This document shows, piece by piece, positions 7,425-39,289 of a DNA stretch of 45,781 bases; the stretch's first letter is position 1, and every line of letters starts with the position of its first letter. Origin of the DNA: a virus; the IMG/VR virus record IMGVR_UViG_3300037258_000493, positions 1-45,781 of that record; one strand, given 5' to 3'. The notes under the pieces are model-generated. The model was not told the DNA's origin. It saw nothing but the letters and a program-made list of their open reading frames with translations, and did no database searches. The translations under genes and the position numbers were made by a program.

Positions 7425-7570
7425 CAGTCGCGCAGCTCATCATGCGCCTCCAGGCTTTTCCGCAGAACGCGCCCGTCCTCCGCATGCAGGCAGAGCACGG
7501 CAGCAACTCTCTCGTAGACGTGGATCACGTCCGCTATGTCCCCGAGGCCGTTGAGGTAGTGCTCGAGTGA
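7421..7570 (+). CDS. Small conserved phage-type protein between terminase and portal
   Basis: 49 residues, coupled by ATGA to the terminase stop and by GTGA to the portal start. It begins MTVAQLIMRLQAFPQNAPVL, continuing into acidic and beta-type residues (DVDHVRYVPEAVEVVLE). Short phage proteins starting with a 'VAQLI..L..FPQNAPV' helix followed by a strand are common, though their role is unknown. The coupled starts and stops and the sequence pattern support it as real. Confidence 0.75.
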   Translation: MTVAQLIMRLQAFPQNAPVLRMQAEHGSNSLVDVDHVRYVPEAVEVVLE

Positions 7571-9726
7571 CCCAGGAAGACTTCCAGCTTCGATGGCCGG
7601 CGGCCGAGATCAACCGCATTTCGAGCCGCATCGAGACCGACTACCGCAACGCGCTCGCCGATCACAACCGGCGCATGGCGCGCTGGCGCGAGTATTACCG
7701 GCGCTGGCGCTGCTCGGTGGATCCGCCGGCTGCCGGCGAGGAGACCGCGTCGAACGTTCCAGTGCCGTTCATTCGCTGGAACATCCTCACGAAGCTGGCG
7801 AAAGAGATCGATTCGCTCTTCGGCGACGACGCCGAGGTAGTTGCCGTTCCTGTTGGGCCCAGCGACGCGAAGCGGGACGCGAAGGTCGGGAAGTACATGA
7901 CCTGGCGCGTGCTGAATTCGATGAAGCTGATCAAGCCGATCTGCGTCTTCACCCTGCGCAAGCTGATCTTCGGCCGCTCGATCGCGTACTCGCCGTGGAA
8001 GCGCGACACCTTCGAGGTGTTGAACCCGGCGAAGGACTATAAGCCCGAAGAGGTGGTCGATTACGAGGGGCCGGATTTCAAGCCGCAGTGGCCAGACGAC
8101 ATCATCGTGCCGTGCGAAGACGCCGAATCGATTCACGACTTCTCGTTCGTCATCCGGAAGTACCGCGCCACGCCCGACCAGCTTCTCACAGGCGAAGAGG
8201 AAGGCCGCTACCAGAACATCAAAGACAACTGGCGTCGCATCGTCGAGCTGGCGCAGAAGACTCCGCAGCGCGAGACCGAAGGCGACGAGATCAAGCGCGA
8301 GAGCGATGAGGCCGAGGGCCTGTTCTACGAGCGCCCGCTTTCCGCCGGCGAGGGCGTGCTGATCCTGGAGTGGTACGGCCGCTGGCGGCCGCTGAAGGGC
8401 AAGACGGACGGCGGCGAGTTCAACCTGAAGCGGCGCGAGGCGAAACAGAAAGACTTCGTGGTGAGGCTGCTATGGGATCTCCGTCTCATCGTCGGCATTC
8501 AGGACCTGCAATACCTGTACCCCACGGTGAAGAACCGGCGCCCATTTGTCGAGTCCGCCATGTTGAGCGATGGCTCGTACTGGCCTGCCGGCCTGGCCGA
8601 GATGCTGCTCGACCTCGAAGACGAGCTGCGCGTGAATCACAACCAGGCCACCGACGCCGGGCAGCTCGCCGCCACGCCGATGTACGGCTACCGGCCAGGC
8701 GCGGGAGCGAACCCCGAAACATTCGAGGTCGAGCCCGGAATCTTCATCCCGCTCGACAACCCGCAGGAGGACGTCGCGGAGATCAAGACCAGCTTCGACC
8801 TCGCGATTCCAACGTGGAAAGAGCAGTGCGTCCTCGCATATGGCGAGAAGGTGACGGGTCATGGCGACTTACAGATGGGCCGCCAGGTCGATCGACCGAA
8901 CGCGCCGCGCACAGCCGCGCAGACGCAAATGCTGCTCGAGGAGGGCAACGTCCGGATCTCGCTCGACACCAAGATACTGGCCGACGACATGTCGGGTGTG
9001 CTGTGTCACTTCTGGGGACTGGAATATATGTTCTCGCCCGAGGAGACGTTCTTCAGAGTGACTGAGGAAGACGCGGACGGGCTGTTCGCGGTGAACAACG
9101 GCGGCTCGATGCTGACCATGGAAGACAGAGACGGTCGCTACGACTTCCGCCTGCAGTTCGCTAACTCGGTTTGGTCGCGCGAGGCGAAGAAGCAGCAGAC
9201 GCTGGCGCGCTATCAGCTCGATTTGCAGAATCCGCTGATCGCGCAGAATCCGCAGGCGCTGTGGGAAGTGACTCGCGATGCGCACGAAGCGCTGGGCGAT
9301 CCGAACTTCGAAGACACTGTGCCGAGGCCTCCGGCGCCGGATATGTCGATCGATCCGAGGGTGGAGTGGGTGAACCTGCTGCACGGCGAAGACGTACACG
9401 TGAACCCGCTCGACAACGATCTGCTACACATGACCCGCCACATGAAGGACCTGCAGACGGCCGAGAAGGACCCAGGCAGCGATCGAGACGCGATGAAGAA
9501 GCTCGTGGTGCACTACCACGATCACATCATGCAGCTCCAGCAAAAGCGGATCCAGCAGGCCGTGATCGAGCAGGCGGTGCAGGCTGCAGGGCAGCTCGCC
9601 GCCGGCGGGAAGATGCCGGCGTTCGCGAATGGGCTGTTCGGCGGGCCGCCGAATCTGCCGCAGAATCCGCAGGGCGTGGGGCCGTTCCCGTTCAGCGGGC
9701 ACAGCGAGGTGATGCATGAGCAGTGA
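7567..9726 (+). CDS. Portal protein
   Basis: A 719-residue protein immediately downstream of the terminase block, the size expected for podovirus (P22-type) portals. Typical portal features are an N-terminal helical region (NRRMARWREYYRRW), a central clip/stem-like part (SYWPAGLAEMLLDLEDELRV followed by NHNQATDAGQLAA), and a long helical C-terminus rich in Gln (IMQLQQKRIQQAVIEQAVQA), like the barrel helix of P22-type portals. It forms the dodecameric DNA gate at the capsid vertex and docks the terminase. Start is GTG with GTGA overlap. Confidence 0.88.
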   Translation: MTQEDFQLRWPAAEINRISSRIETDYRNALADHNRRMARWREYYRRWRCSVDPPAAGEETASNVPVPFIRWNILTKLAKEIDSLFGDDAEVVAVPVGPSDAKRDAKVGKYMTWRVLNSMKLIKPICVFTLRKLIFGRSIAYSPWKRDTFEVLNPAKDYKPEEVVDYEGPDFKPQWPDDIIVPCEDAESIHDFSFVIRKYRATPDQLLTGEEEGRYQNIKDNWRRIVELAQKTPQRETEGDEIKRESDEAEGLFYERPLSAGEGVLILEWYGRWRPLKGKTDGGEFNLKRREAKQKDFVVRLLWDLRLIVGIQDLQYLYPTVKNRRPFVESAMLSDGSYWPAGLAEMLLDLEDELRVNHNQATDAGQLAATPMYGYRPGAGANPETFEVEPGIFIPLDNPQEDVAEIKTSFDLAIPTWKEQCVLAYGEKVTGHGDLQMGRQVDRPNAPRTAAQTQMLLEEGNVRISLDTKILADDMSGVLCHFWGLEYMFSPEETFFRVTEEDADGLFAVNNGGSMLTMEDRDGRYDFRLQFANSVWSREAKKQQTLARYQLDLQNPLIAQNPQALWEVTRDAHEALGDPNFEDTVPRPPAPDMSIDPRVEWVNLLHGEDVHVNPLDNDLLHMTRHMKDLQTAEKDPGSDRDAMKKLVVHYHDHIMQLQQKRIQQAVIEQAVQAAGQLAAGGKMPAFANGLFGGPPNLPQNPQGVGPFPFSGHSEVMHEQ

Positions 9727-12449: not shown

Positions 12450-13331
12450 ATGGCGACGAACAGACGACGAGCGCCGGCGCAGCCGGATCCATCCGCGGCG
12501 GCGAACCGGAAGGTTCTTGCCGATCGCGCGGCCCGCGAGGCCGTGAAGCCGAAGATCGCGCCGGCCGCGCCGAAAGAGAGCGCCGCGACCGATCCGCTGG
12601 AGTTTCTCAGCGACGAGTTCGACCGCAAGAATTTCGGCGATGGACTGCCGACGATCCAGCGGGTCATCTACGGTCCCGATCCCTTACTCGACAATGCCGA
12701 CTTCAAGGAGCGCATCGAGAAGTTCGGCGTCGACGAAATAGCCGAGTGCTCGAAGCGGGCCATTCTCGACAAGGGCGCGATGGCGTTCACAGGCGCGCAG
12801 ATGCAGTCGGTGATTGCGCGATCGATCAAGAGGTTCGGCGTGGAGAAGGTCGCGCAGGCGATGTACGACCGCGTGAAGCTGATTCCCGTGCGCACGGTCG
12901 AAGTGGAAGTCGACCGCGAAGACGAGATGCTCGGCAATCCGCTGAAAGAAGCGGTGAACCGCTATGGTACGCCGGGCTTCGCGCCCAAATTTATGTCGGA
13001 GGGCTGCATTGCGCAGCTCGGCATGCGCGGCTACCGCATCGTGCGCGAAATCAACGGCGACCCGGTGAAGGTGGGCACGCTGATCATGACCGAGATCCCG
13101 ATCGCGATCGCCGAGCGGCGCGAGCGGCAATACGTCGAGGAGAGCCAAGACAACGTACGCGAGGCGCAAGAGCATTACGCCGAGGCGGTCGACCGGATAT
13201 TGACGGAAGCGCCCACCGCCGGCGCGCGCGTGCTGAGCGCGGGCGAAACCGTCAGCGCCAATGCGACCGAGAACGAGAGCTTCCTGGGGCAGCAGCGCAG
13301 CGCGGGAATTTTTAACGAAGAGGTTTTATAA
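12450..13331 (+). CDS. Hypothetical structural-region protein
   Basis: 293 residues from ATG 12450. The N-terminal 45 residues are basic and Ala/Pro-rich. The central part is predicted alpha/beta (DFKERIEKFGVDEIAECSKR, then VIARSIKRFGVEKVAQAMYD and VRTVEVEVDREDEMLGNPLK). The C-terminus is acidic and helical (VEESQDNVREAQEHYAEAVD). I do not recognise the family. Its position between scaffold and decoration protein suggests a capsid-assembly or minor head protein. Confidence 0.7.
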   Translation: MATNRRRAPAQPDPSAAANRKVLADRAAREAVKPKIAPAAPKESAATDPLEFLSDEFDRKNFGDGLPTIQRVIYGPDPLLDNADFKERIEKFGVDEIAECSKRAILDKGAMAFTGAQMQSVIARSIKRFGVEKVAQAMYDRVKLIPVRTVEVEVDREDEMLGNPLKEAVNRYGTPGFAPKFMSEGCIAQLGMRGYRIVREINGDPVKVGTLIMTEIPIAIAERRERQYVEESQDNVREAQEHYAEAVDRILTEAPTAGARVLSAGETVSANATENESFLGQQRSAGIFNEEVL

Positions 13332-13334
13332 GCG

Positions 13335-13901
13335 GTGGCGAACATTAACAGTCCATTCGGCTTCCGGCCGATCAACAATCTGGCGGGCGGACCGTACGCG
13401 GTGAACGAGTACGCGAAGCCGGCGAGCGACACCAACGACGCGATTTTCATGTTCGACCTGGTGGGCAAGGCGGCGTCTTCGGGCGCGGCCCCGACCGGTC
13501 TGGGCAACCCCGCGCCGGGCGTGCAGAGCGGTCAGAACCTGACGCCGGGCACGTCGCTATGGCTGGGCGCGTCGCTGAATTACGGCGCCGTCAGCACGCT
13601 GACTTACCACTATGTGACCGATCAGCCGGATACGGTTTACATCGCGCAGGTGGACGCAACGACGTCAATCACTGTGGCGTCGCACGTCGGCAAGAACGCC
13701 AACGTGCTTACCACGGCAGGAAGCGCGACGACGAAGCAATCCGCCATGAGCGTGAATCACTCCGGCATCGCGACGACGAGCTCGCTTGACTTACGAATTC
13801 GGGCGGTATCGAATATCTCGCCCAACGCGGAGGGCGTGTTCGCGATCGTCGAAGTGACGATCAATAAGCACGAGAACGGATTGCAGACCGCGGGCGTTTA
13901 G
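13335..13901 (+). CDS. Putative head decoration/stabilising protein
   Basis: 188 residues from GTG 13335. It starts MANINSPFGFRPINNLAGG, a pattern shared by small capsid-associated proteins of many podoviruses and siphoviruses. Ser/Thr/Gly-rich beta sequence follows (TLTYHYVTDQPDTVYIAQVD). It lies directly upstream of the major capsid gene. Role as a capsid decoration or stabilising protein is inferred from sequence style and position. Confidence 0.6.
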   Translation: MANINSPFGFRPINNLAGGPYAVNEYAKPASDTNDAIFMFDLVGKAASSGAAPTGLGNPAPGVQSGQNLTPGTSLWLGASLNYGAVSTLTYHYVTDQPDTVYIAQVDATTSITVASHVGKNANVLTTAGSATTKQSAMSVNHSGIATTSSLDLRIRAVSNISPNAEGVFAIVEVTINKHENGLQTAGV

Positions 13902-13991
13902 CGCGCGGGCTGTGTAAGACGGGAGGGCGGCGCGGATCCGGAGACGGACAAGCGCGGCCCCCCGAGTTCAAAAACTTTCGGAGGGTGACAG

Positions 13992-14912
13992 ATGTTTATC
14001 CGGACAATTTTCCCGGATCTGTTTCTTACGTCGATGCTTCCGGCGATCGACGAAGTGGTCATGGGGCGCTATTCGCAGTTCCCCGACCAGTACAGCCGGT
14101 TTTTCCGCATGGAGACGTCCAACCGGTGGGGCGAGCAGACCACCGAAGTGACGGGCTTCGGCCAGATGGCGGTGGTTCCCGAAGGCAAGCAGACCGTCTA
14201 CGACGAAGCGCTGCCCGGGTTCAACAAGACCTACACCCACACCCAGTACAGTTTGGGCTTCAAGGTCTCGAAGATCGCGATGGACGACGACCGTTTCGGC
14301 GTTGTGCGCAAGCTGGCGAGCGAGCTGGGCAAGTCGGCCAAGGAAACCAAGGAAGTGGTGTGCGCCAACGTGTTCAACACGGGCTTCACCTCGGCCACCG
14401 GTCCGGACGGCGTAAGCCTGTTCTCGACCGCGCATCCGCTGATCGGCGGCGGCACTCAGACCAACCGGTTGAGCTATCCGTCCGATCCCGACGTGACCAG
14501 CGTGCGCATCGCGCTCACCGACATGCGCAAGACAGTCGATCACCGCGGCAAGAAGGTGCGCATCGCGCCGCGGCGCATGATTACGCCGCCCGATCTGGCC
14601 TTCGTGGGCAGCGAACTGCTGGGCGGCAACGACCGGCCCGACACGGCGAACCGCGCGATCAACGCGTTCAAAAAGATCCCGGGGATGCCAAACTTCGACA
14701 CCGTCGACGTCTGGGAATATCTGACGGATCCGAACGCCTGGATGATCCAGGGCGACGTGCAGGAGACCGAGTTGCGGCACTACAACCGCGAGGCCTTCAA
14801 CACGGTTCACGACATCGAGTTCGATTCGCGCTCGGTCAAGACGGCCGGCTGGATGCGCTTCTCTGTCGGCTACAACGGCTTCTACGGCATCTACGGGGCG
14901 CCGAGCTCCTAA
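13992..14912 (+). CDS. Major capsid protein
   Basis: 306 residues from ATG 13992 with a strong ribosome site (GGAGGGTGACAG). The sequence is typical of HK97-fold/Mu F-like capsid proteins: an N-terminal arm, a conserved capsid region (KETKEVVCANVFNTGFTSAT, then GPDGVSLFSTAHPLIGGGTQ), spine and A-domain strands, and an ending in SVGYNGFYGIYG. It forms the icosahedral shell. The 90-base gap before it holds only the ribosome site and GC-rich leader; the strong site fits high expression. Confidence 0.9.
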   Translation: MFIRTIFPDLFLTSMLPAIDEVVMGRYSQFPDQYSRFFRMETSNRWGEQTTEVTGFGQMAVVPEGKQTVYDEALPGFNKTYTHTQYSLGFKVSKIAMDDDRFGVVRKLASELGKSAKETKEVVCANVFNTGFTSATGPDGVSLFSTAHPLIGGGTQTNRLSYPSDPDVTSVRIALTDMRKTVDHRGKKVRIAPRRMITPPDLAFVGSELLGGNDRPDTANRAINAFKKIPGMPNFDTVDVWEYLTDPNAWMIQGDVQETELRHYNREAFNTVHDIEFDSRSVKTAGWMRFSVGYNGFYGIYGAPSS

Positions 14913-14921
14913 GGGGGATCC

Positions 14922-15548
14922 ATGGCAGTCAATAGCGATTTCGTACGCGCCACGCGCGTGCGCGAGCTTCACGTGACAGCCCGCGGCGCGCTGGCGAAGG
15001 GTAAGGAACCGAGCATCGGCACTGGCACGTACGTGCCGTCGAAGATCGTCATCAACACGTCCCTGCAAACGGTCCCGGCCTTCACTGTGGAAGACCAGAA
15101 CGGGAACGTGCTCTTCTCGATCGACCAGACGGGCGGGATCGCAACCGGTCCGACGCCGTCGACGGGCCTGGTAAGCGATGGCGTTGCGCATGCGATCTAC
15201 AACTTCGCGGTGGACGGCGGCGCAAGCTGCACGCCCGCCGTGAACGCCACGATTCCGGCCAACGCAATCATCACCGGAGCGACGATCAACTCCGTCACGG
15301 CCGTCACGGCAACCGGCTCGGCCACTGTGGCGATCGGGACGTCAGCGGGATCGAGCGCGAGCTCGATTCTCACTGCGACGGGAAAGGCGAGTCTCTCGCT
15401 TGACGCCCTGGTTAACGGCACGGTAACGCTGGCGGCGCCGGTGAAGCTGAGCGCGGCGGGGCAGGTTGCGATTGCGGTTGCGAGCGGACCTCTGACAGCC
15501 GGCGTGATCGAAATCTTCGTCTACTACGTGGTGGCGGCCAACTCGTAA
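14922..15548 (+). CDS. Putative virion protein (head fibre/decoration type)
   Basis: 208 residues from ATG 14922, with a GGGGG ribosome site. The N-terminus binds-like segment (TRVRELHVTARGALAKGKEP) precedes low-complexity Ala/Thr/Val beta repeats (ATIPANAIITGATINSVTAV, then TATGSATVAIGTSAG), like head-fibre or collar proteins. It lies directly after the capsid gene. Structural assignment is by composition and context. Confidence 0.6.
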   Translation: MAVNSDFVRATRVRELHVTARGALAKGKEPSIGTGTYVPSKIVINTSLQTVPAFTVEDQNGNVLFSIDQTGGIATGPTPSTGLVSDGVAHAIYNFAVDGGASCTPAVNATIPANAIITGATINSVTAVTATGSATVAIGTSAGSSASSILTATGKASLSLDALVNGTVTLAAPVKLSAAGQVAIAVASGPLTAGVIEIFVYYVVAANS

Positions 15549-15549
15549 A

Positions 15550-15978
15550 ATGGCGCATCCGAAGACAGCCAGGGTGCTGATCGCATCCGGGGCCGCGACG
15601 GCGTCGCAGGCCTCGAAGGTGCAACAGGATGAGCACGCGCGCGGGATCCGGCTTTATCTCACGATTACGGCTTCGAGCGGGACCGGGGGTCTCCAGGTGG
15701 TGATCCGCGGCTACGATCGCGTGCCGGGCGCGGGAAACGCTCAGGATGCCGGCCTGCCGGCGAACCCGATCACGGGCGGCACGGTTCAACTGAGCGCCGG
15801 CGGAGCGCCGGTGACACAGGTTGGGACCTACGCGTACGAGCTATCGCCCCAGGGCGGAACGCCGCGCGGGGCTGTCATGGATGTGACCCAGGCGGCGCTG
15901 CCCTGGCGCTGGGACGCGCTGGTCGTCGCGGCCGACAACAGCAGCTACACGTATTCATTGAGCGCCGAGACGGCGTAA
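15550..15978 (+). CDS. Putative beta-sandwich virion protein
   Basis: 142 residues, starting one base after the previous stop. Predicted all-beta: GIRLYLTITASSGTGGLQVV, then GTYAYELSPQGGTPRGAVMD and WDALVVAADNSSYTYSLSAE. Small proteins with this 'R..R.YL.IT..SGT' pattern are frequent near phage capsid genes and probably decorate the head. Role inferred. Confidence 0.6.
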   Translation: MAHPKTARVLIASGAATASQASKVQQDEHARGIRLYLTITASSGTGGLQVVIRGYDRVPGAGNAQDAGLPANPITGGTVQLSAGGAPVTQVGTYAYELSPQGGTPRGAVMDVTQAALPWRWDALVVAADNSSYTYSLSAETA

Positions 15979-15990
15979 GGGAGAAGAAAA

Positions 15991-16635
15991 ATGTTTCCAC
16001 CGGTCAGAGTAGGACAGGGCGCGGCGGCGGACGGATCGCTGACGCAGCCGCGGGCGGGACGCTCGCTCGAGCAAATCGTGGCGGACGGCCACGCGCGCTA
16101 CCAGGAGCCGACCTATCGCCAGAACATGTTCAGCATGACGCTGACGGCCACGACGACGGGCATAGCGGCGGGCAACATCGTTGGCGCGGCCGCGGCGGCC
16201 GCGACGAACTTCGCGCTGTTCAACCCAGTGGGATCGGGCAAGAACCTGGTGATCGTGAAGTTCGGCATGGGCGTCATTTCGGGCACGCCAGGCGCGGGTC
16301 CGATGTTCCACGGCTACATCGGCAACGTGCCGACGGCAGTGTTCACGGGCGTGCCTCTGAACAACTTCGTGAACGGTCCGGCCTCTGTAGCCAAGGGATA
16401 CGCAACGGCGGCCGGCACGACGCTTACGGCAGGCCTGGCGCCCGTAACGCTCCGCATCGCGGACTTTGCGTCGAGCGGCACGGCCGCGGCCTCGCCCGGC
16501 GAATTGAAAGCGATCGAGTACGTGGACGGAGACATCGTCATTCCGCCCGGCGCGGGCTGGCTTCCGCTATGGAGCGGGGCGGGCACGTCGCTGCTCAACG
16601 GATACTCCGTGACTTGGGAAGAGATCCCGCTCTAG
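15991..16635 (+). CDS. Hypothetical virion protein
   Basis: 214 residues from ATG 15991 with a GGGAGAAG ribosome site. The N-terminus is short and polar. The bulk is Ala/Gly/Thr-rich beta sequence (GSGKNLVIVKFGMGVISGTP, then ELKAIEYVDGDIVIPPGAGW), with a final Trp-containing strand. It belongs to the run of small capsid-linked proteins. Unknown exact role. Confidence 0.6.
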   Translation: MFPPVRVGQGAAADGSLTQPRAGRSLEQIVADGHARYQEPTYRQNMFSMTLTATTTGIAAGNIVGAAAAAATNFALFNPVGSGKNLVIVKFGMGVISGTPGAGPMFHGYIGNVPTAVFTGVPLNNFVNGPASVAKGYATAAGTTLTAGLAPVTLRIADFASSGTAAASPGELKAIEYVDGDIVIPPGAGWLPLWSGAGTSLLNGYSVTWEEIPL

Positions 16636-16636
16636 A

Positions 16637-16645
16637 GTCGAATAC
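16637..16645 (+). promoter_or_regulatory. GTCGAATWC element, copy 2 (GTCGAATAC)
   Basis: Follows the TAG of the previous gene by one base and lies exactly 6 bases before the GTG at 16652. TTGGGA lies 18 bases upstream of its TCGAAT hexamer, the same spacing as TTGCGG in copy 1. No good Shine-Dalgarno sequence precedes the GTG. Confidence 0.5.
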
Positions 16646-16651
16646 GAAAGA

Positions 16652-18763
16652 GTGAGACTCCTCGCGCTCGCTCTGGCGTTTGCGGACCTGGCCGCCGGCC
16701 AGGCCATCACCAATTCCGCAAGCCCGACCAACATGCCCAACCAGGTCAGCGTCACGACGGCGTGGCTGTACCTGAACAAGATGCACTACGCCGGCGCGTG
16801 GTCGAGCGCGTCCACTTACAGCTCGCAGGATACCGTGACCTACTCCGGCTCGACGTATGTGAGCCTGCAGGCCGGAAACCTTAACCAGCCGCCCGCGTCT
16901 TCGCCGAGCTACTGGGCGCCGATCGGCGGCGGCGGCGCCGTCGCAAGCGTCTTCGGGAGAACGGGAGCGGTAACCGCGCAGACGGGCGACTACACTGCTT
17001 CGCAAATTGGGCTTACCGACGTTTCTAACGCCGGTAAGGTGATCGCCGTCCAGGGCGTTGCCGTGGCCGTGACCGCGCCCACCAACGGGCAGGTGCTGAC
17101 TTACAACAGCGGCTCGTCGAGCTATGCGCCCGCGACCCCCAGCAGCGGCTCCGTCACAAGCGTCTTTGGGAGAACGGGCGTGGTAACCGCGCAGACGGGC
17201 GACTACACCGCTTCGCAAATTGGGCTTACCGACGTTTCTAACGCCGGCAAGGTGATCGCCATCCAGGGCATTGCCGTTAATGCAACGGCCCCCACTGACG
17301 GCCAGGTCCTCAAATACAGTAGCGGCTCATCGAGCTATGTGCCGGCGACCCCCAGCAGCGGATCGGGCTGCACTGTAACCGGGAACGCCGGGCGCATACC
17401 CTTCGACAATGGCAGCACAGGTTGCTCAGAGGACAGCAACCTGGTGTGGGACTCGACCAACCACTATTTGGAGATTGGGACCGGCACGGCCACGGCGCCG
17501 CTCTCTATGACTCGCGCTTGGAGCTACACAGGCACGGGCAATTCGCAGGACATGGTGTTGCTTCACCCGACCTGGACCGAGGCGAGTGCGGACGGGACCA
17601 GCACCTTTCGCGCGCTGGACATTGCGGCGACATGCGAGCTTTCGGGCAACACGTGCGCGGGCGTATACAGCACCGCGACGGCGGGGCCAAGCTCTTCGAC
17701 AGCTCACGCATTTGCCGGCATCTTTCGCGGCGTGAACGACACCAGCGGCACGGGTGGCTCATCGGTTGTGATGGGCGCCGTCTACGGCGATCTGACGCTG
17801 CCGGCCAGCGTAACGCTCGGGAATGCGGATGATTTTGATTCGTTCGGAATCACCTTGGGCGGCTCTGGCATCACGCAATCTATTACTTCCAGCGTGGCTT
17901 TCCGCGCGACTTTCGCCGCGAATCCTTCTGGGCTTGGGACCGTAACGCTCGGGGGGAATTATGGGTATTGGTGTCCGCAGATGACTGGCACGGTCATAGG
18001 CACGTCGAGCGCCTGCCTCGCCATCGGCGGCACTCCAGGCTCAAACCGAACGAAGGATGCGATCTACATCAATTCCACCGGCGCCGGCGGCGGCCCGATT
18101 ATCACATTCGACAAGCTGCTTTTCGGGTCGCCAACGACCTACACAGCTTTTGTGACCGCGACGGGCCTGGAATATATGGACTCGACGTTCGTGCGGCCGC
18201 AGACCAGCACAGGAGAGCAGTACGCGAAGTACATAATGCTCAACCACAATATTGGCTCCGCCAACACGATCAACGAGTATGGCGGCATCCGCGTGGATGA
18301 CGAGCCAGCCAACACCGGCACGAACACAACGCGCTACCTCTTCAGCGCCAATGCGGCCAATCTCAGCAGCGCAACCACGACGACAATTGCCATGTTCCAT
18401 GGGCAGATGGGTGGCGCGGCGGACGGATCGCCGAACGGCACGTTCTCCGTTAATGGCACCGTGACTTCGCTCTATGGGTTCGATTTTGCGTTGGGCGCTA
18501 ACGGGACCGGCACGGTGGGTACGATTGCGGGGCTCAACCTCGGCACTCTCTGCCAGGTCGGATTGACGATCACGAACTGCTACGCGGTGCATTCAACGGA
18601 CGCGACTGCGGTGGCGAGCTTCGCTGGGCCACTCAACGCATCGACTATTACCGCGAGCGGGCAGAGCGGAAACGTTGGACAGGCCGCCTGTTACAAGGCT
18701 GGCGGAACGCTTGGTATCTGCTCCTCGGTGGTGGGAGCGGGAGGGGCATGTACATGTGGTTAG
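16652..18763 (+). CDS. Tail-fibre-like protein with an apparent signal peptide
   Basis: 703 residues from GTG 16652. The first 18 residues (MRLLALALAFADLAAGQA) look like a Sec signal peptide, which is unexpected for a virion protein. Residues about 40-90 resemble a CBM5/12-type carbohydrate-binding module (YAGAWSSASTYSSQDTVTYS, then GSTYVSLQAGNLNQPP). Two tandem 71-residue repeats follow (SVFGRTGAVTAQTGDYTASQ), a motif common in phage tail fibres. The remainder is Gly/Thr/Ser-rich beta sequence. It ends in a Cys-containing Gly-rich tail. The start of the next gene overlaps by 16 bases. Most likely a receptor-binding fibre, or an exported fibre-derived adhesin. Confidence 0.7.
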   Translation: MRLLALALAFADLAAGQAITNSASPTNMPNQVSVTTAWLYLNKMHYAGAWSSASTYSSQDTVTYSGSTYVSLQAGNLNQPPASSPSYWAPIGGGGAVASVFGRTGAVTAQTGDYTASQIGLTDVSNAGKVIAVQGVAVAVTAPTNGQVLTYNSGSSSYAPATPSSGSVTSVFGRTGVVTAQTGDYTASQIGLTDVSNAGKVIAIQGIAVNATAPTDGQVLKYSSGSSSYVPATPSSGSGCTVTGNAGRIPFDNGSTGCSEDSNLVWDSTNHYLEIGTGTATAPLSMTRAWSYTGTGNSQDMVLLHPTWTEASADGTSTFRALDIAATCELSGNTCAGVYSTATAGPSSSTAHAFAGIFRGVNDTSGTGGSSVVMGAVYGDLTLPASVTLGNADDFDSFGITLGGSGITQSITSSVAFRATFAANPSGLGTVTLGGNYGYWCPQMTGTVIGTSSACLAIGGTPGSNRTKDAIYINSTGAGGGPIITFDKLLFGSPTTYTAFVTATGLEYMDSTFVRPQTSTGEQYAKYIMLNHNIGSANTINEYGGIRVDDEPANTGTNTTRYLFSANAANLSSATTTTIAMFHGQMGGAADGSPNGTFSVNGTVTSLYGFDFALGANGTGTVGTIAGLNLGTLCQVGLTITNCYAVHSTDATAVASFAGPLNASTITASGQSGNVGQAACYKAGGTLGICSSVVGAGGACTCG
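16945..17370 (+). repeat. Tandem 213-base repeat within the fibre-like gene
   Basis: Two in-frame copies (16945-17157 and 17158-17370), each coding 71 residues. The first 120 bases or so of each copy are almost identical and the rest have drifted. Such duplications lengthen fibre shafts and are recombination-prone. Confidence 0.85.
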
Positions 18764-19089
18764 TCAGGATCATCTTAGTTGGCGTCATCGCGCTCGCCGG
18801 ATCGTTTGCTCTTGCCGAGAGGGATGCAATAGTTGCGCAGGAAGCAGCAACACAGACGCCTAAACCTCCCGAAATAGGACCCGTGTCGCCCTGGTGGCGA
18901 GACGCACAAATCAGCGGGATACCTGTTCAATTTGACGCGTTTGAAATCACTGACCATGACCGCTTCGTCATGGCCATCGACATGTCGGGGCACGTGAGAT
19001 TCGGGAAAGGCTATTCCCCGGACGTCGCTACGAAGCAGTTCATGCACGAGATGTCCAAATACTTCCACAACCAAAAACCATGCCAATGA
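18748..19089 (+). CDS. Small secreted protein
   Basis: 113 residues from ATG 18748 (or 18754), overlapping the end of the fibre-like gene. The signal peptide is clear: R7, hydrophobic core IILVGVIALAGSFA, cleavage likely after ALA. It is followed by a polar A/Q/T/P linker and a compact domain (VQFDAFEITDHDRFVMAIDM, then SGHVRFGKGYSPDVATKQFM). No family recognised. It would be exported across the inner membrane. Confidence 0.65.
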   Translation: MYMWLVRIILVGVIALAGSFALAERDAIVAQEAATQTPKPPEIGPVSPWWRDAQISGIPVQFDAFEITDHDRFVMAIDMSGHVRFGKGYSPDVATKQFMHEMSKYFHNQKPCQ

Positions 19090-19439
19090 AGACCTTGATC
19101 GTATTTATCTTAGCGGCGGCGGCGAGCTTCGTTCTGGCTCAAACGCCCGCGCCTGTTGACCCGGCGGCTGACGAGCCGAAGGCAGCGGCCCAGACGCCAA
19201 AACCGAGACTCACCCCGGAAGGCCGCGAGGCCTACCACGTCGCGCTCGAAAACATCATGGCTGCCGACGCGCGAGCCAGCGCGCTGCGGCTGGAGATCCG
19301 CGAAAAGCTTCAACCCGCGCTCGCGGCCGAGTGGCAAAAACTCGTAGCGACATGCGGTGGGGATCCCAAACCCGACGAAAAGGGCGTACTGCAGTGCGCG
19401 CCCGCGCCCGTTAATAACTCACCAGGAGGCGGTAAATGA
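19080..19439 (+). CDS. Small secreted protein with helical mature region
   Basis: 119 residues from ATG 19080 (ATG 19086 is an alternative). It has a signal peptide (MKTLIVFILAAAASFVLAQ, cleavage after VLA), then a T/P/A-rich linker and a charged helical segment (LENIMAADARASALRLEIRE). Two Cys lie near the end (ATCGG and VLQCAP). It overlaps neighbours on both sides, so the secreted genes form one translation-coupled block. Function unknown. Confidence 0.65.
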   Translation: MPMKTLIVFILAAAASFVLAQTPAPVDPAADEPKAAAQTPKPRLTPEGREAYHVALENIMAADARASALRLEIREKLQPALAAEWQKLVATCGGDPKPDEKGVLQCAPAPVNNSPGGGK

Positions 19440-20080
19440 AAACGCTTGTAGTGTTTCTCGCGACCGCGGTCGCGCTCATGGCACAGGCTGCCCAAACGGC
19501 CCCTGCGACCCAAACTGTTCCGACTCTGTCGGTGATGCCGGTTGGAACGCAAACGGCCTACCCGGGAGCCACCCTCAGCCTGCAGGTGAACCTCTCAAAC
19601 TCATCGGGCGCCAACCTCCAAGCAATCGGGATTACGGGCTGGACCGGCGCGAGCGCGGCAGCGGCGGGAACGGCCTCGACGGCCGCGGCCAAAGCTCTCT
19701 GGAGCCAAGGATCGACCTATCTGCTGGTTGGCTTCCCGAATCCGCCCGGCGTGACTTCGATGCCAACGAACACCGCGTTGTCGGACGGTCAGTTGCTCAC
19801 GTTTTCCTATTTGGTGCCGCCGACGCAGGCAGTCGGTTCCAACCTGACCGTGTCGGTACCGACTACGGTATTCGCGGGTTCGGTGTTCGGCTCAGACCCC
19901 ACTGGAGCATCGATCCCTATGGCAGTTGCGCCGCTGTCTCTACCCGTAGTCGCGAATCCCACCTGCATAGCTACGATCAAAACGGACATCGGCAACTTCC
20001 TCGCCGCGCCATCGCAGGTATTGGAAGCTAAGATCGAGACCGATCTGACCGCGGTAATCGCCGGCGGCTCCTGCCAATGA
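19436..20080 (+). CDS. Secreted beta-rich (cohesin-like) protein
   Basis: 214 residues from ATG 19436, with AGGAGG upstream and an ATGA overlap. The signal peptide MKTLVVFLATAVALMAQA is followed by an immunoglobulin/cohesin-like beta sequence (TQTAYPGATLSLQVNLSNSS, then GQLLTFSYLVPP) and two Cys near the C-terminus. The 'YPGATLSLQVNLSNS' style occurs in many exported proteins of Acidobacteria. It may be host-derived cargo or an exported adhesin; it lies among virion genes. Confidence 0.65.
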   Translation: MKTLVVFLATAVALMAQAAQTAPATQTVPTLSVMPVGTQTAYPGATLSLQVNLSNSSGANLQAIGITGWTGASAAAAGTASTAAAKALWSQGSTYLLVGFPNPPGVTSMPTNTALSDGQLLTFSYLVPPTQAVGSNLTVSVPTTVFAGSVFGSDPTGASIPMAVAPLSLPVVANPTCIATIKTDIGNFLAAPSQVLEAKIETDLTAVIAGGSCQ

Positions 20081-21021
20081 CGTGGGGACAGCTCAGGCAT
20101 CAACTCTCGATTAGCGCGCCGGGCGTCTCGATCGATCTCATCGACGGATGGCTGAACAAGCGCTACGCGCGCGTGCTGCAGGCGACTGACTGGAAGGGCA
20201 TAGAGGCGCACGCGACGATCCAGACGCAGGCGGCCTATCAATCCAGCACTGACTCAGTGACTCTCACGGTGGGCAGCGCCGCGGTTACAGGCGCCGGCAC
20301 GGCGTGGACGAACGCCATCACCGGACAGAAGTTCTATCGCCCCGGTGACAACGCGATCTATGGGGCGACGTATGTCTCCTCCACATCGCTCACGCTCGAT
20401 CGAGCCTTCGAGGGCGACGGCGTTGACGCGGCCGGGACGGTCTTCACAGCCGCGCAATACGTGCTGATGCAGAACGTTTACGGGCTTCCCCCGGATTGCT
20501 CGAGTGTGGTCAGCATCCTCAATCCGGTCGACGGGCTGCCGATGGACGGGATGTCGAAGGCGGAGCTCGACCGCTCAGTCGGACCGCGCACGCTGATCGA
20601 CAACCCCGAGATTTACGCGATCTACGACGACTCGCCGGAGACCGATCCGCCCGTTCTCCACCAGGTGGAGTTCTACCCGCCGCCGCGCTATTCGCGCGGC
20701 TTCGTGCTGGACTACCGGCGCGCGGCGCTTGGTTTCGACGGCGGTAACACCAGCGGTTCGCCGCTGCCATTCGTTACGGACGGAGTGTTGCTCGCGGGCG
20801 TGCGCGCCGACATCGCGAAGGAACTGAAAGAGCTCGGGCAGGCCGTCGCCTACGAGGCTGAGTTCGACGGCGAGCTGAAAGCCGTGATCAAGGTCGAGCA
20901 TGAGCAGCGGCGCAAAAAGCCCGTGATGCGCATGGCGGCGCGCTTCACGCGTCACCGCTTTCTGCGCGCGATCCGCGGCTACAACAACAACTGGGGTCCG
21001 GGCCAGGGCGGTCCGAACTAA
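20077..21021 (+). CDS. Putative head-tail adaptor / connector protein
   Basis: 314 residues from ATG 20077 (ATGA overlap). The N-terminal helix (SIDLIDGWLNKRYARVLQAT) resembles adaptor proteins that dock below the portal. A beta region follows (SVTLTVGSAAVTGAGTAWTN) with conserved-looking WxN and PPRYSR segments. The C-terminus is basic and helical. It is immediately followed by a second adaptor-like gene. The assignment is by sequence style and order. Confidence 0.6.
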   Translation: MTWGQLRHQLSISAPGVSIDLIDGWLNKRYARVLQATDWKGIEAHATIQTQAAYQSSTDSVTLTVGSAAVTGAGTAWTNAITGQKFYRPGDNAIYGATYVSSTSLTLDRAFEGDGVDAAGTVFTAAQYVLMQNVYGLPPDCSSVVSILNPVDGLPMDGMSKAELDRSVGPRTLIDNPEIYAIYDDSPETDPPVLHQVEFYPPPRYSRGFVLDYRRAALGFDGGNTSGSPLPFVTDGVLLAGVRADIAKELKELGQAVAYEAEFDGELKAVIKVEHEQRRKKPVMRMAARFTRHRFLRAIRGYNNNWGPGQGGPN

Positions 21022-21728
21022 TGCAGCTCTCCGATATGGTCACGCGAGTGTCGCAGCGGCTGGCCGAGGCGGGGATACCGGTGTTTTATCCGAGCGCCGA
21101 GATCGTCGCGGCGCTCAACGAGGCGCAGAGGTTCTTTGTGTTGCTAACGCTGGGCCTGGAAACGACGCAGCCGTGGAACGTGCCGGCGGCGACTACGTTC
21201 TTTCACATGCTCACGTTCTTTACCGACTGGATGGTTCCGTTGCGCATCACCACCTCGACGGGCGCGAAGGTTCGGCCGTCCCGTTTCGAGGATCTGGGCG
21301 CGCTCGATTCGAACTGGCGCAACTCGCCGGGCGCTCCCTATCGCTATGCGGCGGCCGGCGCGGACTTTTTGGCGCTCTACCGGCAGCCGGCCGGAAGCGG
21401 CACGACGTTGAGCGTGACCTACGCGCGTGCGCCGGTTCCACTCGTTAACGACACTGACGTGCCGGAGATTCCCGAAGAGTATCACTCGAAGCTCGTCGCT
21501 TACGGCATCTACCGGCCGCGCCAGGTGGAGGGCGGTCAGGAGTTCGCAAAGACGCTGCCTATGCTCGGGGAGTTCCTCGACGGAGCGCAGCACTACGCGA
21601 ATTACGTGCGGGCGCGCAACCGCGGCTCGCAGTACGATAAGACGCCCTTCGAACTTGAGAAGTTCGATCGCTCGACGCTGCTAAAGCTTCGCAAGGACCT
21701 GATGCCGTCGCGGCCGCCGGCGAATTAA
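21021..21728 (+). CDS. Putative adaptor / tail-completion protein
   Basis: 235 residues, start overlapping the previous stop as TAATG. The N-terminus (VTRVSQRLAEAGIPVFYPSA) leads to an EIVAALNEAQRFFVLL helix typical of small adaptor proteins. The middle region contains FEDLGALDSNWRNSPGAPYR, followed by YAAAGADFLALYRQP. The end, EIPEEYHSKLVAYGIYRPRQ, matches a helical segment seen in head-tail connector proteins of podoviruses. Role inferred. Confidence 0.65.
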   Translation: MQLSDMVTRVSQRLAEAGIPVFYPSAEIVAALNEAQRFFVLLTLGLETTQPWNVPAATTFFHMLTFFTDWMVPLRITTSTGAKVRPSRFEDLGALDSNWRNSPGAPYRYAAAGADFLALYRQPAGSGTTLSVTYARAPVPLVNDTDVPEIPEEYHSKLVAYGIYRPRQVEGGQEFAKTLPMLGEFLDGAQHYANYVRARNRGSQYDKTPFELEKFDRSTLLKLRKDLMPSRPPAN

Positions 21729-21733
21729 GAGAC

Positions 21734-24004
21734 ATGGGCACTCCCGTCGCAGTCTTTCCCGGCGCAGTGGTTACCGATAACCAACTGCGCGTCGCAAACA
21801 ACGGTATCGAGACGCAGCTCGCCTCGCCGATGCTTTCCACCGACACCGCGGCGACGGTGATCAACGCCACCGGCATTGCCGGCAATTCCATCGTCACTAT
21901 AGACAACGAAAAGTGCGCGGTGTATAGCGTCTCCGGGAACGTCCTCACGTTCGGCAAATCCGGCTCGGCCAACCTGGATGGACGCGGGTTCGACGGTACG
22001 GCGGCGGCGCCGCACGCCGCCGACGCGGCCGTCGCGATGAACGAAGACGCCTGGCACCACAATGCGCTAAAGGAAGAGGTGAAGGCGATCCAGGCAGCTC
22101 TCGGAGCCTCGCTCTCTAACATTCCCTCGGGCATGCCGCAGCTCCTGATGTCGAAGTACGCTTTCACGCCGCAGACTCCAGGCGGCAGTCTCTCTCCCGG
22201 AAGCAACACCATCGCGCTTTCCCCGGTCCCCCCGGGAGTCAACGGCGCGGATTCCAACCATTACCTCTACATCTCCGGCGGCACTGGAACGGCCGAAGCG
22301 GTGCTCATCACCGGAGGGACCGCTGTCGCCGGGAATCCCTCAGGCACGCTCATCGTGACATGCGCCAACTCCCACACGGGAGCATGGACGATCCAGAGCG
22401 CGACAGGCGGCCTGTCGGAAGCAATCGCCGCACTCCCATCGGGCGGCGGCGCGATTCTCTGCGGCGCGGGGTCGGCAACGTTGCACGCGCCCGCATATAA
22501 CCGGCCGATCCCGATGTGGATCGAAGGCCTCGGCCAGGAAACCACCACGTTCATCGTGGGCTCCGATTTTCCATTGGCCGCGACCGGAGTCTTCAACTGG
22601 ACAAGCAATCCGGGAGGACCGACCGCCCTGCAGCCCGGCGGCATGCGCAAGTTCACCTTACTTTTTCCGCAGCCGGACTCGACCAACGTCGCGACCTACA
22701 CCCATTGGCCGCCCGCACTCTATTTCACCAGTTGCCACCGGCCCGAGTTCTCCTCGATCAACATCCAGTGCGCATGGACGGGATTTTTCAGCTCAAGCAA
22801 TGACGGGCTGACGGCGAAGGACATTACGCTTTCGTTCTTCAGCCGCGGTTTCGACCTCGACGGACAGACCGACACCGTCCGACTGGAGAACATCCACGCC
22901 TGGCCGACCGGGTGCACCGCCAATCAGGACACCGCTTTCACCGCCCCAAGCACGGCTAACGTGCTGTTCTGGCTCGGCAACGTCCAGGATTTCAAAATCA
23001 CAAATTTCGGCTCCATTTCGGGGGGCGGTCCGCTCAACGCGCACTCAGGGACGGGCGGCTGTCCGGTTGGCCAGCTATCGAACTGCGATGCCGACACCGT
23101 AGGCGAATTCGTCGTTCAGGACGGAATCATTGAAGCGGTAAACATCCAAATGTCAATGGTGGGCGCCGTGGACGGCTTCGTGGTCAACGGCGGCCTCCTG
23201 ACTATCACCGGCGCCTCGGTTTTCGTCAACAACGGCGTTACGGGCACGCCCCTGAAAGTGCGCATAAACCAGAGCGCCACCGGGGCGGCGGCAACGATCA
23301 CGCCGGGACTCCAGGCCACCGCAGTGACCGTAATCCAGGGGAGCACGGACATTAATTCCGTGCAGGCCACAACCGCGACCGGCTTCACAGGTACAGCCGA
23401 GTGTCAGTTGATCGCATGCCGGTTCGAACGCTCAGCCAACGTGTCCTACAGCAGCGCCACGGTGAGCCAACTGAGCGGCACGGGAACGATGCGGATGAGC
23501 GTTGTCGCAAACAAATTCTCGGACGTGGGGTCAGGCTCTGTCACGGCCATCTTACTGCAGGATGACAACAACCACGAATGCATCGGCAATTCGGGCGGCG
23601 GCGGTTCGTTTTCCTTGGCGGCCACTACCAAGACTCTATGGATCGGAAATAACAAGTTTGCGTCGAACGTCAACCGTTTCCTCGACCCCGTCTACCTGCA
23701 ATCCGGTACGGCCACGGCCACGACGGGCGCCGCTACGCTGAATACTCAGGCTGGCGTCGTCACGTCGGAAGCGCTCACAACTGCGGCGGGCTCCGACTAT
23801 ATTCTGACACTCACGAGCTCGCTCGTCACCGCCGCATCGCAGGTTTTCGCATCGGCGGCGCTGGGATCGAGCACGCAAGGGATTCCGGGCGTCATTGCAG
23901 TAACGCCCGGCTCCGGCTCGGTCACGATTCGGATTCGCAACTTTCATGCGACGCTCGCGTTCAACGGCGCCATCAAGATCGCCTTTCAGGTGAACCCGAG
24001 CTGA
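21734..24004 (+). CDS. Putative tailspike / beta-helix virion protein
   Basis: 756 residues from ATG 21734. The N-terminal 120 residues form a virion-attachment-like region ending in a helix (HHNALKEEVKAIQAALGASL). The central part is rich in short beta turns typical of a right-handed beta-helix (FTLLFPQPDSTNVATYTHWP, then NIQMSMVGAVDGFVVNGGLL). The C-terminus is Thr/Ala/Ser-rich. It probably recognises or degrades surface glycans. A CGAATTA element close to the recurring GTCGAATWC motif precedes the start by 6 bases. Confidence 0.65.
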   Translation: MGTPVAVFPGAVVTDNQLRVANNGIETQLASPMLSTDTAATVINATGIAGNSIVTIDNEKCAVYSVSGNVLTFGKSGSANLDGRGFDGTAAAPHAADAAVAMNEDAWHHNALKEEVKAIQAALGASLSNIPSGMPQLLMSKYAFTPQTPGGSLSPGSNTIALSPVPPGVNGADSNHYLYISGGTGTAEAVLITGGTAVAGNPSGTLIVTCANSHTGAWTIQSATGGLSEAIAALPSGGGAILCGAGSATLHAPAYNRPIPMWIEGLGQETTTFIVGSDFPLAATGVFNWTSNPGGPTALQPGGMRKFTLLFPQPDSTNVATYTHWPPALYFTSCHRPEFSSINIQCAWTGFFSSSNDGLTAKDITLSFFSRGFDLDGQTDTVRLENIHAWPTGCTANQDTAFTAPSTANVLFWLGNVQDFKITNFGSISGGGPLNAHSGTGGCPVGQLSNCDADTVGEFVVQDGIIEAVNIQMSMVGAVDGFVVNGGLLTITGASVFVNNGVTGTPLKVRINQSATGAAATITPGLQATAVTVIQGSTDINSVQATTATGFTGTAECQLIACRFERSANVSYSSATVSQLSGTGTMRMSVVANKFSDVGSGSVTAILLQDDNNHECIGNSGGGGSFSLAATTKTLWIGNNKFASNVNRFLDPVYLQSGTATATTGAATLNTQAGVVTSEALTTAAGSDYILTLTSSLVTAASQVFASAALGSSTQGIPGVIAVTPGSGSVTIRIRNFHATLAFNGAIKIAFQVNPS

Positions 24005-24008
24005 CCAC

Positions 24009-24701
24009 ATGCCTACCGGGACAATCCTATGGGGTTCGACGCCGTGGGGAACCTCCGGTTCCTTCATTGGGAGCGGCGCTGTCCTCGACGCCCAGAGCTG
24101 CGTCAGCGATGCGGTCTACAGGCTGGGATTTTCGAGCCCGAGCGAAATCGCCAGCGTCTCCTGGGTGACACTCGCCGAGCTTTACCAGTGGGCCGACGAG
24201 GCAGCGAAGGAGCTGGCGTACGAGGCCGGCGTCTTTCTGACCGAGGACACATCGATTACATCGGCGCAGGGAACGGCGACTTACGAGTTGCCCTCGACGC
24301 ACGTGTTCGCGTTGGCGGCGTGGCTGGGCGCGCAGGCGCTGCGCATCACGGCCGTGCGCGATCTGTGGGCGCTCGACGCGAACTGGGTGACGACGTCGGG
24401 GAATGCGACGCGCTGCTCGTTCGACGCCGGCGGCGTGGGGACCGTGACACTCTACCCGAATCCTGTCACTGGCGGGGACACGCTGGCGCAGATCTGCCAG
24501 GAGATCCAGGGAACGCTCGCGGCGGGGAGCTCGACCATCGCGCTGCCCACCGTGCTGCAGGATTTCTTCACTTACGCGATGCTAGCCGGCGCGCGGGGCA
24601 AGGAGAGCGAGGCGGCGATGCCGGAGATGGCGGCCCACTTCGAAGGGCGGCTCAAGCTGTACGAGCAGGTGATTGAGCATCTGTGGGGACCGGGGCAGTA
24701 G
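24009..24701 (+). CDS. Adaptor-like virion protein
   Basis: 230 residues from ATG 24009. It contains helices and strands like those in the adaptor gene at 21.0 kb: LAELYQWADEAAKELAYEAG, then ATYELPSTHVFALAAWLGAQ. The C-terminus (VLQDFFTYAMLAGARGKESE) is followed by an amphipathic helix ending in LYEQVIEHLW. Probably a head-tail connector component. It is the last gene before a single minus-strand gene interrupts the late operon. Confidence 0.6.
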   Translation: MPTGTILWGSTPWGTSGSFIGSGAVLDAQSCVSDAVYRLGFSSPSEIASVSWVTLAELYQWADEAAKELAYEAGVFLTEDTSITSAQGTATYELPSTHVFALAAWLGAQALRITAVRDLWALDANWVTTSGNATRCSFDAGGVGTVTLYPNPVTGGDTLAQICQEIQGTLAAGSSTIALPTVLQDFFTYAMLAGARGKESEAAMPEMAAHFEGRLKLYEQVIEHLWGPGQ

Positions 24702-24909: not shown

Positions 24910-24941
24910 CCTTTCTAAAGCATACATCGCCCCCCGCGCTT

Positions 24942-24950
24942 GTCGAATTC
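24942..24950 (+). promoter_or_regulatory. GTCGAATWC element, copy 3 (GTCGAATTC)
   Basis: Seven bases before the GTG at 24958, in the gap right after the antisense gene, where the plus-strand late operon must restart. There is no Shine-Dalgarno sequence before the GTG, which would fit leaderless transcription from this element. Confidence 0.5.
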
Positions 24951-24957
24951 CCACCTA

Positions 24958-27900
24958 GTGCCTTACGAGAGCAAGAAACTCCAGATACTCGGCGGCGGCT
25001 TCAACGCACTGCCGCCGGTGGACAAGGTCCCATCGACCGATTACCTGATCGCGCAGAACTGGCGCGTCGACCGCACGGGGCGGCTGGTCTCCCGCTTTGG
25101 CTACCAGCAGAAGTTCTCGATCGCGTCGGCCGGCATCGCGCATTCGGCGGCTCTTCACGGCGGAGTGGACGGCGATTATTACGTGGGATGCAACACGTCG
25201 ATCGCGAGCCCGACGCCGTCGAAGCTCTACTGGAACTTCAACGCCTCCGCGATCGCGTCCGGATTCGACGGCAACCGCATCGGCATGGCCGCGATGAACG
25301 GCTGGATGTACTTCATGAACCGCGGCGCTCAGGGGAGACACCAGGCGTCGCTGGGCGCGGGAACGTCGCAGGCCTGGAACCTCGACGCGCCGTCGAGCTC
25401 GCCGGCGGCGTCAACGACTTCGACTCCGTCGACCAGCACATCGGTCACTTACAGCTACACGCTGCAAAGCGACCCGACGTACATCCACTCCCTGACGATT
25501 GCAGGAGTCACTTACCAGTTCGCAGAGAACGGCTATTCGGCCGGCCAGCTTCCGCTCGTGATCGCAAGCCTCGCATCGGCGGACCCGAACTGCACGGTGA
25601 CTTATAGCGGTACGGGATCCGACGTGGTGATCGCGCCGATCCAGTCAAACGTGCTGATCGCGGTGAGCGGGTCGGACAGTAACACGCCGACGAACCTGGC
25701 GAACGGCTCCGTGACGTCGCTGCCCAATGGGATCTACACACTGTATGTCACCTACCAGACGGCGGATGATTCGCTCGAGAGTAACCCGAGCCCCGTATCG
25801 AACGCGGTGACGGCTGCGAACCAGGCTGTCAGTCTCACGAGCATTCCAGTGAGCGCGGACGGCCGCGTGGGCGTGCGCAACGTCTACGCCATCGGCGGCA
25901 CGCTGGCGTCGGCCTATCTGATCGGCAGCATCGCCGATAACTCGACGACGAGCGCGACCTTCTCATGGGCGGACCTCGATGTCACTAATGCCGGCATTAC
26001 GATGCCGACGACGAACGATCCGCCGCCGGCGGCGTCCGGCGTTGCGGGCCCGCACTTCAGCCGGCTCTTCGCGTGGTCGACCGCGGCGAACCCGAACCGG
26101 CTGTTCTACACCGAACCGGACTTGCCGCAATACTGGCCCGGCTCCGGCGATCCGGCGGTAGGCAACTGGGCGGACGTCGGGACCGAGGGCGAGGCCATTC
26201 TGTGGTGTACGTTCCACGGCAATACGACCGTGATCTACAAAGAGCGCTCGATCTGGATGCTGGTGGGCGATCCCTCTACGGGCTACCTGCAGCGACTGCG
26301 CGATGACCTCGGCCCCGACAACGCATTCGCGATCGTGGAAGCCGGGAGCATCGACTACTTCGTAGCTGCGGGTTCGCTGCAATCCTTCGACGGCAACAAT
26401 GCCGCGGATGGATTCGCCGCGGCCGTGCAGCCGCTCTTCACCGGCAGCCTGACGTACAACCCGATGAGCCCGACCCCGCCGGGCAGCGTGCTTCCCGGAT
26501 CGAGCTACAACGCAAGCTCCACCGCCAAATACGCAGTCGCGCTCGGCTATGCGCTGGGCAAGCTTTACGTGGGCTACGCCGAACAGGCCGGGTCGACCTC
26601 GTATTGCCTGCTCGTCTACCACGAGGACAGCGCGCGCTGGTTCTATCACCGCAACGGCATCTCCGGAGTGACGGGCTTCTTTGGCTTCGTTTTCGACGGC
26701 GTCCAGATGGTGGGACTTTCCGGATCCACCGGCGGCGCCGCGATCGGCGAGAACCTGGACGACTTCCGGGCTTTCGCGACGACGGATCCCGGCAGCGCTG
26801 CGATCGCGTGCGCATACCAGTCGCACTATGAAGACTGTGGGCTGCCAGACATTGAGAAGGTCTGGCTGGAAGCCGCCATCGATTACGAGTTCTCAGGCGA
26901 CACGGCGAACGTGTATATCGGGACGGACGGCGGCGCCACGTTCGCGGCGATCGGCACGATCGCCGGAACCGGCCGGATAACGAAGTCTTTCCCGCTGGCG
27001 TTCCTCTCGGGTACGGCGGTAATCAAGGACCCATCCGTCACGGCGCAGACCGATCTACTCGCCAAGAATCTCTCGATTGCGATCGCAGGCAGCGCGAGCA
27101 ATGCGCTGATTCTGCACAACGTGTACCTGTACTACTACGCCGAGGCGCGGCTTTCGTCGGCCGTTTCCACCCTGCCGAGCGACCTTGGCTTGCCCGCGGT
27201 GAAGCAGTGCAAAGAGCTCGAGGTGGACGTCGACCCGAATGGAAACGCGGTGCAGGCGATCGTCGGGAGCGATCTGCCGGGCAACCTGATGGCGGTGCGG
27301 CAGACACTCGCCGTATCCAGCCAGGCCGGCCGGGCGCTTCTCAAAGTTCCGTTCGCCGTGACCGAGGGCTACCTTTGGAAACTGGCGCTGGCCTCGACGG
27401 CCGGGCCGTTTCGCGTCTACGGCGCGCGGCTGCTGATGCGGCCGATCGGCGTTCATGTCGACGCGTATGAAGCGGCCGCGGGATTTGTGTGGGACTCGGA
27501 GGCGATGTCGTTCGACTCGGGAGTCACCCACATCCCGCGCGGCTACGCGATCGCGCTTGCCGCGTTGCCGATCAAGCGAGCGCGCAGCATTTCTCTCGAG
27601 ATCGAGACGTTCGGCGGGAACGTGACGGTGGCGCTGCTCACTGACTTACCGGGAGATGCGCAGGCGGTGCGGTTCACAGACACGGTAGTCAACACCGGGA
27701 CGGCAGGCAGGCGGTTTGTGCGCATCCCGCTTCCACAGGGGACGACGCCGGCGATCGAGGGCAGAATGTTCCGCCTGCAGATCTCCGGGGCCACCGCGTT
27801 CCGGCTCTACGGCGCGGCGGTCGAGATCCTGGCGGTGGGCGTGTACATCGAGGCGTATGAAGCGGCCGGCGGCGCGGTGTACGATTCGCGCGAAATCGAC

Positions 27901-30263: not shown

Positions 30264-30264
30264 C

Positions 30265-30273
30265 GTCGAATTC
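30265..30273 (+). promoter_or_regulatory. GTCGAATWC element, copy 4 (GTCGAATTC)
   Basis: One base after the TAG of the preceding gene and 7 bases before the ATG at 30281. No Shine-Dalgarno sequence is apparent. Same arrangement as the other three copies. Confidence 0.5.
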
Positions 30274-30280
30274 CCGAGAC

Positions 30281-39276: not shown

Positions 39277-39289
39277 TTTTTCTGTCCCT

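Follow-up and report, generated by a model that had tools for sequence, protein, structure and literature searches.

For a tailed phage, the cytoplasm is where structural proteins are expected to be synthesised and put together, and the known tailspikes and depolymerases of the P22 and G7C type are made there without a signal peptide. Exported phage proteins are known from other settings, such as Lom and Bor of phage lambda, both small and produced in the lysogen as outer-membrane proteins or lipoproteins. A search for signal-peptide-bearing tail fibres of tailed phages found no paper in an open-access subset of the literature, which is weak evidence, and the nearest case was that of the Porphyromonas gingivalis prophages (Nixviridae), with five genes of unknown function that carry signal peptides and follow the host's preference for glutamine after the cleavage site (PMC10367356). 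Other Acidobacteriota are the hosts of the isolated Tunturi phages, of which Tunturi_3 is a podovirus (PMC11924767). Phage-encoded proteins with signal peptides are already known, but neither that subset of the literature nor the phage records searched yielded a lineage-wide cassette of exported, disulfide-type fibres or spikes within the virion operon.

The stretch of DNA considered here, the window, is the IMG/VR virus record IMGVR_UViG_3300037258_000493 at its full length of 45,781 bases. Its recognised late genes include a terminase (5730-7424), a portal protein (7567-9726), two phrog_399 structural proteins (21021-21728 and 24009-24701) and a large internal virion protein (24940-29445). 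The gene for the major capsid protein (MCP; 13992-14912, + strand; phrog_371, 4.5e-17) forms the left flank of a variable cassette, and the conserved right flank is a gene for a tail adaptor-like protein with weak tail PHROG matches (20077-21021, + strand). After three small post-MCP genes and before the adaptor gene lie four genes, g1 to g4, which overlap by 16 nt (g1/g2), 10 or 4 nt (g2/g3) and 4 nt (g3/g4), and the 3' end of g4 overlaps the adaptor gene, which starts at 20077, by another 4 nt. We consider it fairly probable that g1 to g4 represent, in this phage, a variable cassette of predicted exported spikes, which occupies a fixed site in the late operon of a phage lineage of soil Acidobacteria (Bryobacterales) that has a short-tail-type gene order.

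A sequence-only reading had described the region from 16652 to 20080 as four consecutive, overlapping genes with Sec-type signal peptides, and both the gene coordinates and the signal-peptide scores bear this out. The score is a home-made one rather than SignalP, calibrated on 13 known E. coli signal peptides (range 5.5-8.1), and the gene caller was home-made too. With scores of 8.3, 7.7 and 7.9, g2, g3 and g4 are in line with the E. coli controls, and g1, at 5.05, falls slightly under them. Shuffles of each gene's own composition reached its score in 2.3% of cases for g1, 0.1% for g2, 0.1% for g3 and 0% for g4, and 0.45% of shuffled N-termini without a signal peptide reached a score of 5. On the home-made score, the cassette proteins have the tripartite form of a basic n-region, a hydrophobic h-region and small residues at −3 and −1; the signal peptide of g1, with an Asp in its h-region, is the weakest of the four, and the orthologues of g1 have clear ones. 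An artefact of start choice or composition was rejected on the strength of these shuffles and of the recurrence of signal peptides at the same site in relatives. Other genes of the window mostly score far under 5, the exceptions being a holin-like protein and, downstream of the late operon, two genes on the minus strand, 38809-39276 (−) and 39290-39781 (−), which are without homologues among the fetched loci; the former has a weak SOUL match.

The first gene, g1 (16652-18763, + strand), has a GTG start and encodes 703 amino acids, comprising a signal peptide, a CBM5/12-like domain, fibre repeats and a mature part with 12 cysteines. The predicted signal peptide (16652-16705, + strand; MRLLALALAFADLAAGQA) is supported by Gln17, which is invariant in 12 homologues, and it is followed by a conserved N-terminal cap (PTNxPNQ..YLYxNKMHYAGAW; 16706-16948, + strand), with the CBM5/12-like module at residues 49-88, and by two fibre repeats (VFGRTGxVTAQTGDYTASQIGLTDVSNAGKVIA..; 16940-17352, + strand). 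The repeats, which had been noticed from the sequence alone, are confirmed by matches to phrog_16348 and to the tail fiber family phrog_35419 (9e-9). The carbohydrate-binding module proposed at the same time was found as a match to PF02839 (CBM_5_12, E = 4.5e-4), but at 20.6 bits it stays below the Pfam gathering cut-off of 26.2. Comparison of the g1 N-terminus with solved structures in the PDB gave weak matches to chitinase-CBM and tail-fibre profiles (E 0.03-0.1), and an AlphaFold model of it, with a pLDDT of 59, is too weak to confirm the fold.

The nearest orthologue of g1 found in one of the searches aligns over residues 2-88 only; the orthologue L058:8864-10474 has in common with g1 the signal peptide and the N-terminal 88 amino acids (59%), but not the C-terminus. 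Across the family the letters of the signal peptide diverge, and the mature start, with Gln17, YLYxNKMHYAGAW and the CBM5/12-like stretch, is kept. With its fibre repeats and family match, and with a conserved N-terminus joined to a variable C-terminus, g1 resembles tail fibres and tailspikes, and a tblastn search with it against 50,697 phage records gave no match. The cassette of the closest relative of g1 also holds a gene resembling family-4 glycosyltransferases (L002:6523-7575; PF20706, GT4-conflict, above cut-off).

The other three genes are small. The product of g2 (18748-19089, + strand) has 113 amino acids, is predicted to be exported by a signal peptide at residues 1-23, and has weak coding statistics in its N-terminal part. 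The predicted exported product of g3 (19080-19439, + strand) has 119 amino acids, or 117 from the ATG at 19086, and one cysteine pair, as does the 214-residue product of g4 (19436-20080, + strand), also predicted to be exported. The latter has a weak cohesin-like match under the cut-off (PF00963, E = 0.14), and its AlphaFold model (pLDDT 48) is too weak to confirm a fold. Neither g2 nor g4 had homologues among the relatives or the Bryobacterales genomes searched, and none were found for g3, so the place of g2 to g4 in the cassette is argued from signal peptide and position. An Rfam search found nothing.

Relatives were gathered by MCP-based searches, which gave 80 viral loci and four loci from metagenome-assembled genomes (MAGs), with the loci being mostly fragments and the MAG binning uncertain. 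Three of the MAGs are labelled Bryobacterales or Bryobacteraceae, and the label of the fourth, Streptosporangiaceae, is probably a mis-bin; from these MAG prophages the host is placed in Bryobacterales (Acidobacteriota). After dereplication, 48 loci had both an MCP and an adaptor gene, the window included. At least one signal-peptide gene lies between the capsid genes and the adaptor in 31 of the 48, with two more narrowly under the cut-off, and no such gene was called at the site in 17. When cassette positions are taken as those after the first two post-MCP genes, 33/69 genes there score at least 5.5, as against 17/814 elsewhere, some of which are holins (Fisher p = 2e-28). Loci with and without signal peptides are interspersed on the MCP tree, the median gap from the last cassette gene to the adaptor is 6 nt, and in further Bryobacterales prophages, with MCPs of 67, 53 and 35% identity, signal-peptide proteins again adjoin the adaptor. 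A general habit of acidobacterial phages was not borne out, as no signal peptide was seen among the Tunturi_3 and Tunturi_4 structural and tail genes tested. Two unrelated phage contigs (L026:7041-10010 and L027:7041-9644; GC 44% in L026) encode a fibre-like protein of ~870-990 amino acids that starts with a clear signal peptide (MRYLVFIIALFAAVQTNAQ), so fibres of this kind are not confined to the Bryobacterales phage lineage.

The signal-peptide proteins of the relatives match pectate lyase/beta-helix, LamG (lectin) and GDSL esterase domains as well as a tail-fibre PHROG; matches to collagen or CBM77 in their cassette proteins are weak, and a CPxGY..GxCV motif is present in other cassette proteins. 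Because of these domain matches, the cassette may be regarded as a changing assortment of spike-like proteins directed at glycans. Among the explanations put forward in the sequence-only reading, a secreted glycan-binding system is the one that fits best, given the LamG, pectate-lyase, GDSL-esterase and CBM-like matches. The host-derived cargo proposed alongside it fared poorly, as the g1 cap occurs in only 2/257 Bryobacterales genomes, once beside a phage MCP and once beside homologues of phage structural genes, and the genome searches with g2 and g4 came back empty, although this last is weak evidence against recent acquisition from the host.

Exported proteins tend toward even cysteine counts (PMC7678975). 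Here, counts are even in 39/44 signal-peptide proteins of at least 200 amino acids, compared with 155/329 (47%) of the proteins without one (p = 7e-8), and in only 12/32 fibre-like proteins of the same phages that lack a signal peptide; the cysteine density is 1.5 per 100 amino acids with a signal peptide and 0.7 without. These even counts, together with conserved cysteine pairs, give the cassette proteins the signature of oxidative folding. A spike-like protein of the window (21734-24004, + strand) provides a natural comparison, for it has no signal peptide, none lies in frame upstream of it, and it matched no solved structure. Six homologues at the equivalent place (G021, G003, L227, L228, L236 and L237) have a signal peptide ahead of the same mature start. 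A cysteine pair (AVCA...SSCPNL) is present in all six, and both of its cysteines are replaced in the window copy. The natural reading of this single case is that the window spike lost its signal peptide, and with it the need for a disulfide, a direction suggested by the signal-peptide form being the commoner one.

The cleavage sites carry a mark of the host as well. Glutamine follows the cleavage site in 48/72 phage signal peptides and 25/50 host ones, against a background of ~4%; the host figure comes from contigs L214-L224 and L230-L232, as an [AGS]Q near the site. Such a "Q-rule" has been described as specific to Bacteroidetes (PMC5837995), and the signal peptides of the Bryobacterales host resemble it. 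Cysteine parity, the fact that the window spike lacks both the signal peptide and the cysteine pair, and the recurrence at one site across the lineage all argue that export of the cassette proteins is real, and give it support well beyond the signal-peptide call, albeit from sequence.

It is possible to envisage how such a cassette would work. Its proteins would be made together late in infection, exported by Sec and processed by signal peptidase I, in many cases to a new N-terminal glutamine, and would then form disulfide bonds and fold in the periplasm. Lysis would then release them in bulk, and they may act on cell-surface or extracellular glycan, as adhesins or as spikes active on polysaccharide, with g1 as the large fibre or glycan-binding member and g2 to g4 as small exported companions. 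No C-terminal sorting signal was recognised in the cassette proteins, which leaves it unexplained how they would get across the outer membrane ahead of lysis. Directly after the large internal virion protein stands a gene without a signal peptide but with an NDRLRRI-type N-terminal motif (29442-30263, + strand), and a gene of this type, variable in its remainder, holds that place in most full contigs that cover the region. Its product is the probable canonical tail fibre, and since it is the likelier candidate for that role, the exported set looks accessory to it. G012 (27001-27822) and G016 (29814-30686; both in late-gene orientation) have minus-strand genes close to the one for the large internal virion protein; these have a YPGGK..G start and resemble DNA adenine methylases as assigned by eye.

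The most serious competitor is that the proteins are receptor-binding fibres of the virion, disulfide-folded in the periplasm and docking on the particles at lysis, which we rate as unlikely, though with an appreciable chance of being right. In lysates, particles that lack tails can acquire P22 tailspikes, and maturation outside the cytoplasm need not keep a tailspike from joining particles once the cells lyse. The cassette genes adjoin the adaptor and tail-type genes, the N-terminus is kept and the C-terminus swapped in the style of receptor-binding proteins, and tailspike-type domains occur in the relatives. The signal-peptide-less window spike at the equivalent place also fits, and it means that export is dispensable for that spike family. 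However, no single docking domain is common to all the signal-peptide proteins, 17 of the 48 relatives have no such gene called at the site, the small companions are unlike fibres, and a probable fibre with a conserved N-terminus and no signal peptide is already present. The assembly route that this would imply, a tailed virion built in two compartments with late spikes that are exported by Sec, disulfide-bonded in the periplasm and attached only when the contents mix at lysis, seems doubtful to us.

Improbable, in our estimation, is a set of lysogenic-conversion morons, in which exported proteins at the cell surface modify the lysogen, by superinfection exclusion or adhesion, and are parked in the late operon as lom is in lambda. 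An integrase-like gene is present in the window (2507-3430, family assigned by eye), the two further signal-peptide genes lie on the minus strand at 38809-39781, and the GC3 of g2 to g4 (0.62-0.71, with other window genes mostly about 0.8) is low, as expected for recent acquisitions. A role expressed in the lysogen is nonetheless argued against by the tight packing of the late operon, with starts and stops overlapping up to the adaptor gene, by the lack of an internal promoter match, and by the way the cassette recurs at one site even in deeply separated branches. A sigma-70-like scan of the + strand from 13000 to 20080 gave no match, acidobacterial promoters being possibly different, and no terminator match was seen on that strand inside the cassette; the surface decoys raised in the sequence-only reading, taken as a lysogen-only role, are less likely. 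There is very little to recommend the idea that the hydrophobic N-termini are virion anchors or chance starts, despite the weak g1 signal peptide and the home-made score, since they have a charged n-region, an h-region and an AxA/AxQ cleavage pattern, their letters diverge where the mature start is conserved, and cysteine parity and the paired absence in the window spike speak for export.

The preferred reading, an exported accessory spike cassette, draws on host-type Sec signal peptides, position, C-terminal variability, the glycan-type domains of relatives and cysteine parity. Should real export signals sit on a swapped set of fibres and depolymerases, such phages would have either a secreted second arm of infection, in the form of free glycan-active adhesins released late, or spikes that mature in another compartment, and soil might yield stable enzymes active on polysaccharides in the form of exported, disulfide-bonded spikes. 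Bordetella phage BPP-1-type podoviruses come close in a Bbp16-like match adjoining the MCP (E 0.006, under the Pfam cut-off) and presumably in gene order, and no signal peptide is known to us on Mtd or the other tail proteins of BPP-1. The Tunturi phages share the phylum of the host, with no signal peptide on the Tunturi_3 and Tunturi_4 genes tested. Lom and Bor are signal-peptide proteins in or beside a late region, but here long fibres are found, with no membrane anchor and translationally tied to the late operon. The P. gingivalis prophages share signal peptides that follow the host's glutamine preference, whereas here large fibre or spike proteins bear them, with domains of glycan type, at one fixed site of the virion operon, lineage-wide and with cysteine evidence. 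Tailspikes of the P22 and G7C type share the beta-helix, SGNH/GDSL esterase, lectin and collagen modules and the conserved N-terminus with a variable C-terminus, and the proteins described here differ from them in having signal peptides and in being rich in cysteines, which tend to be even in number.
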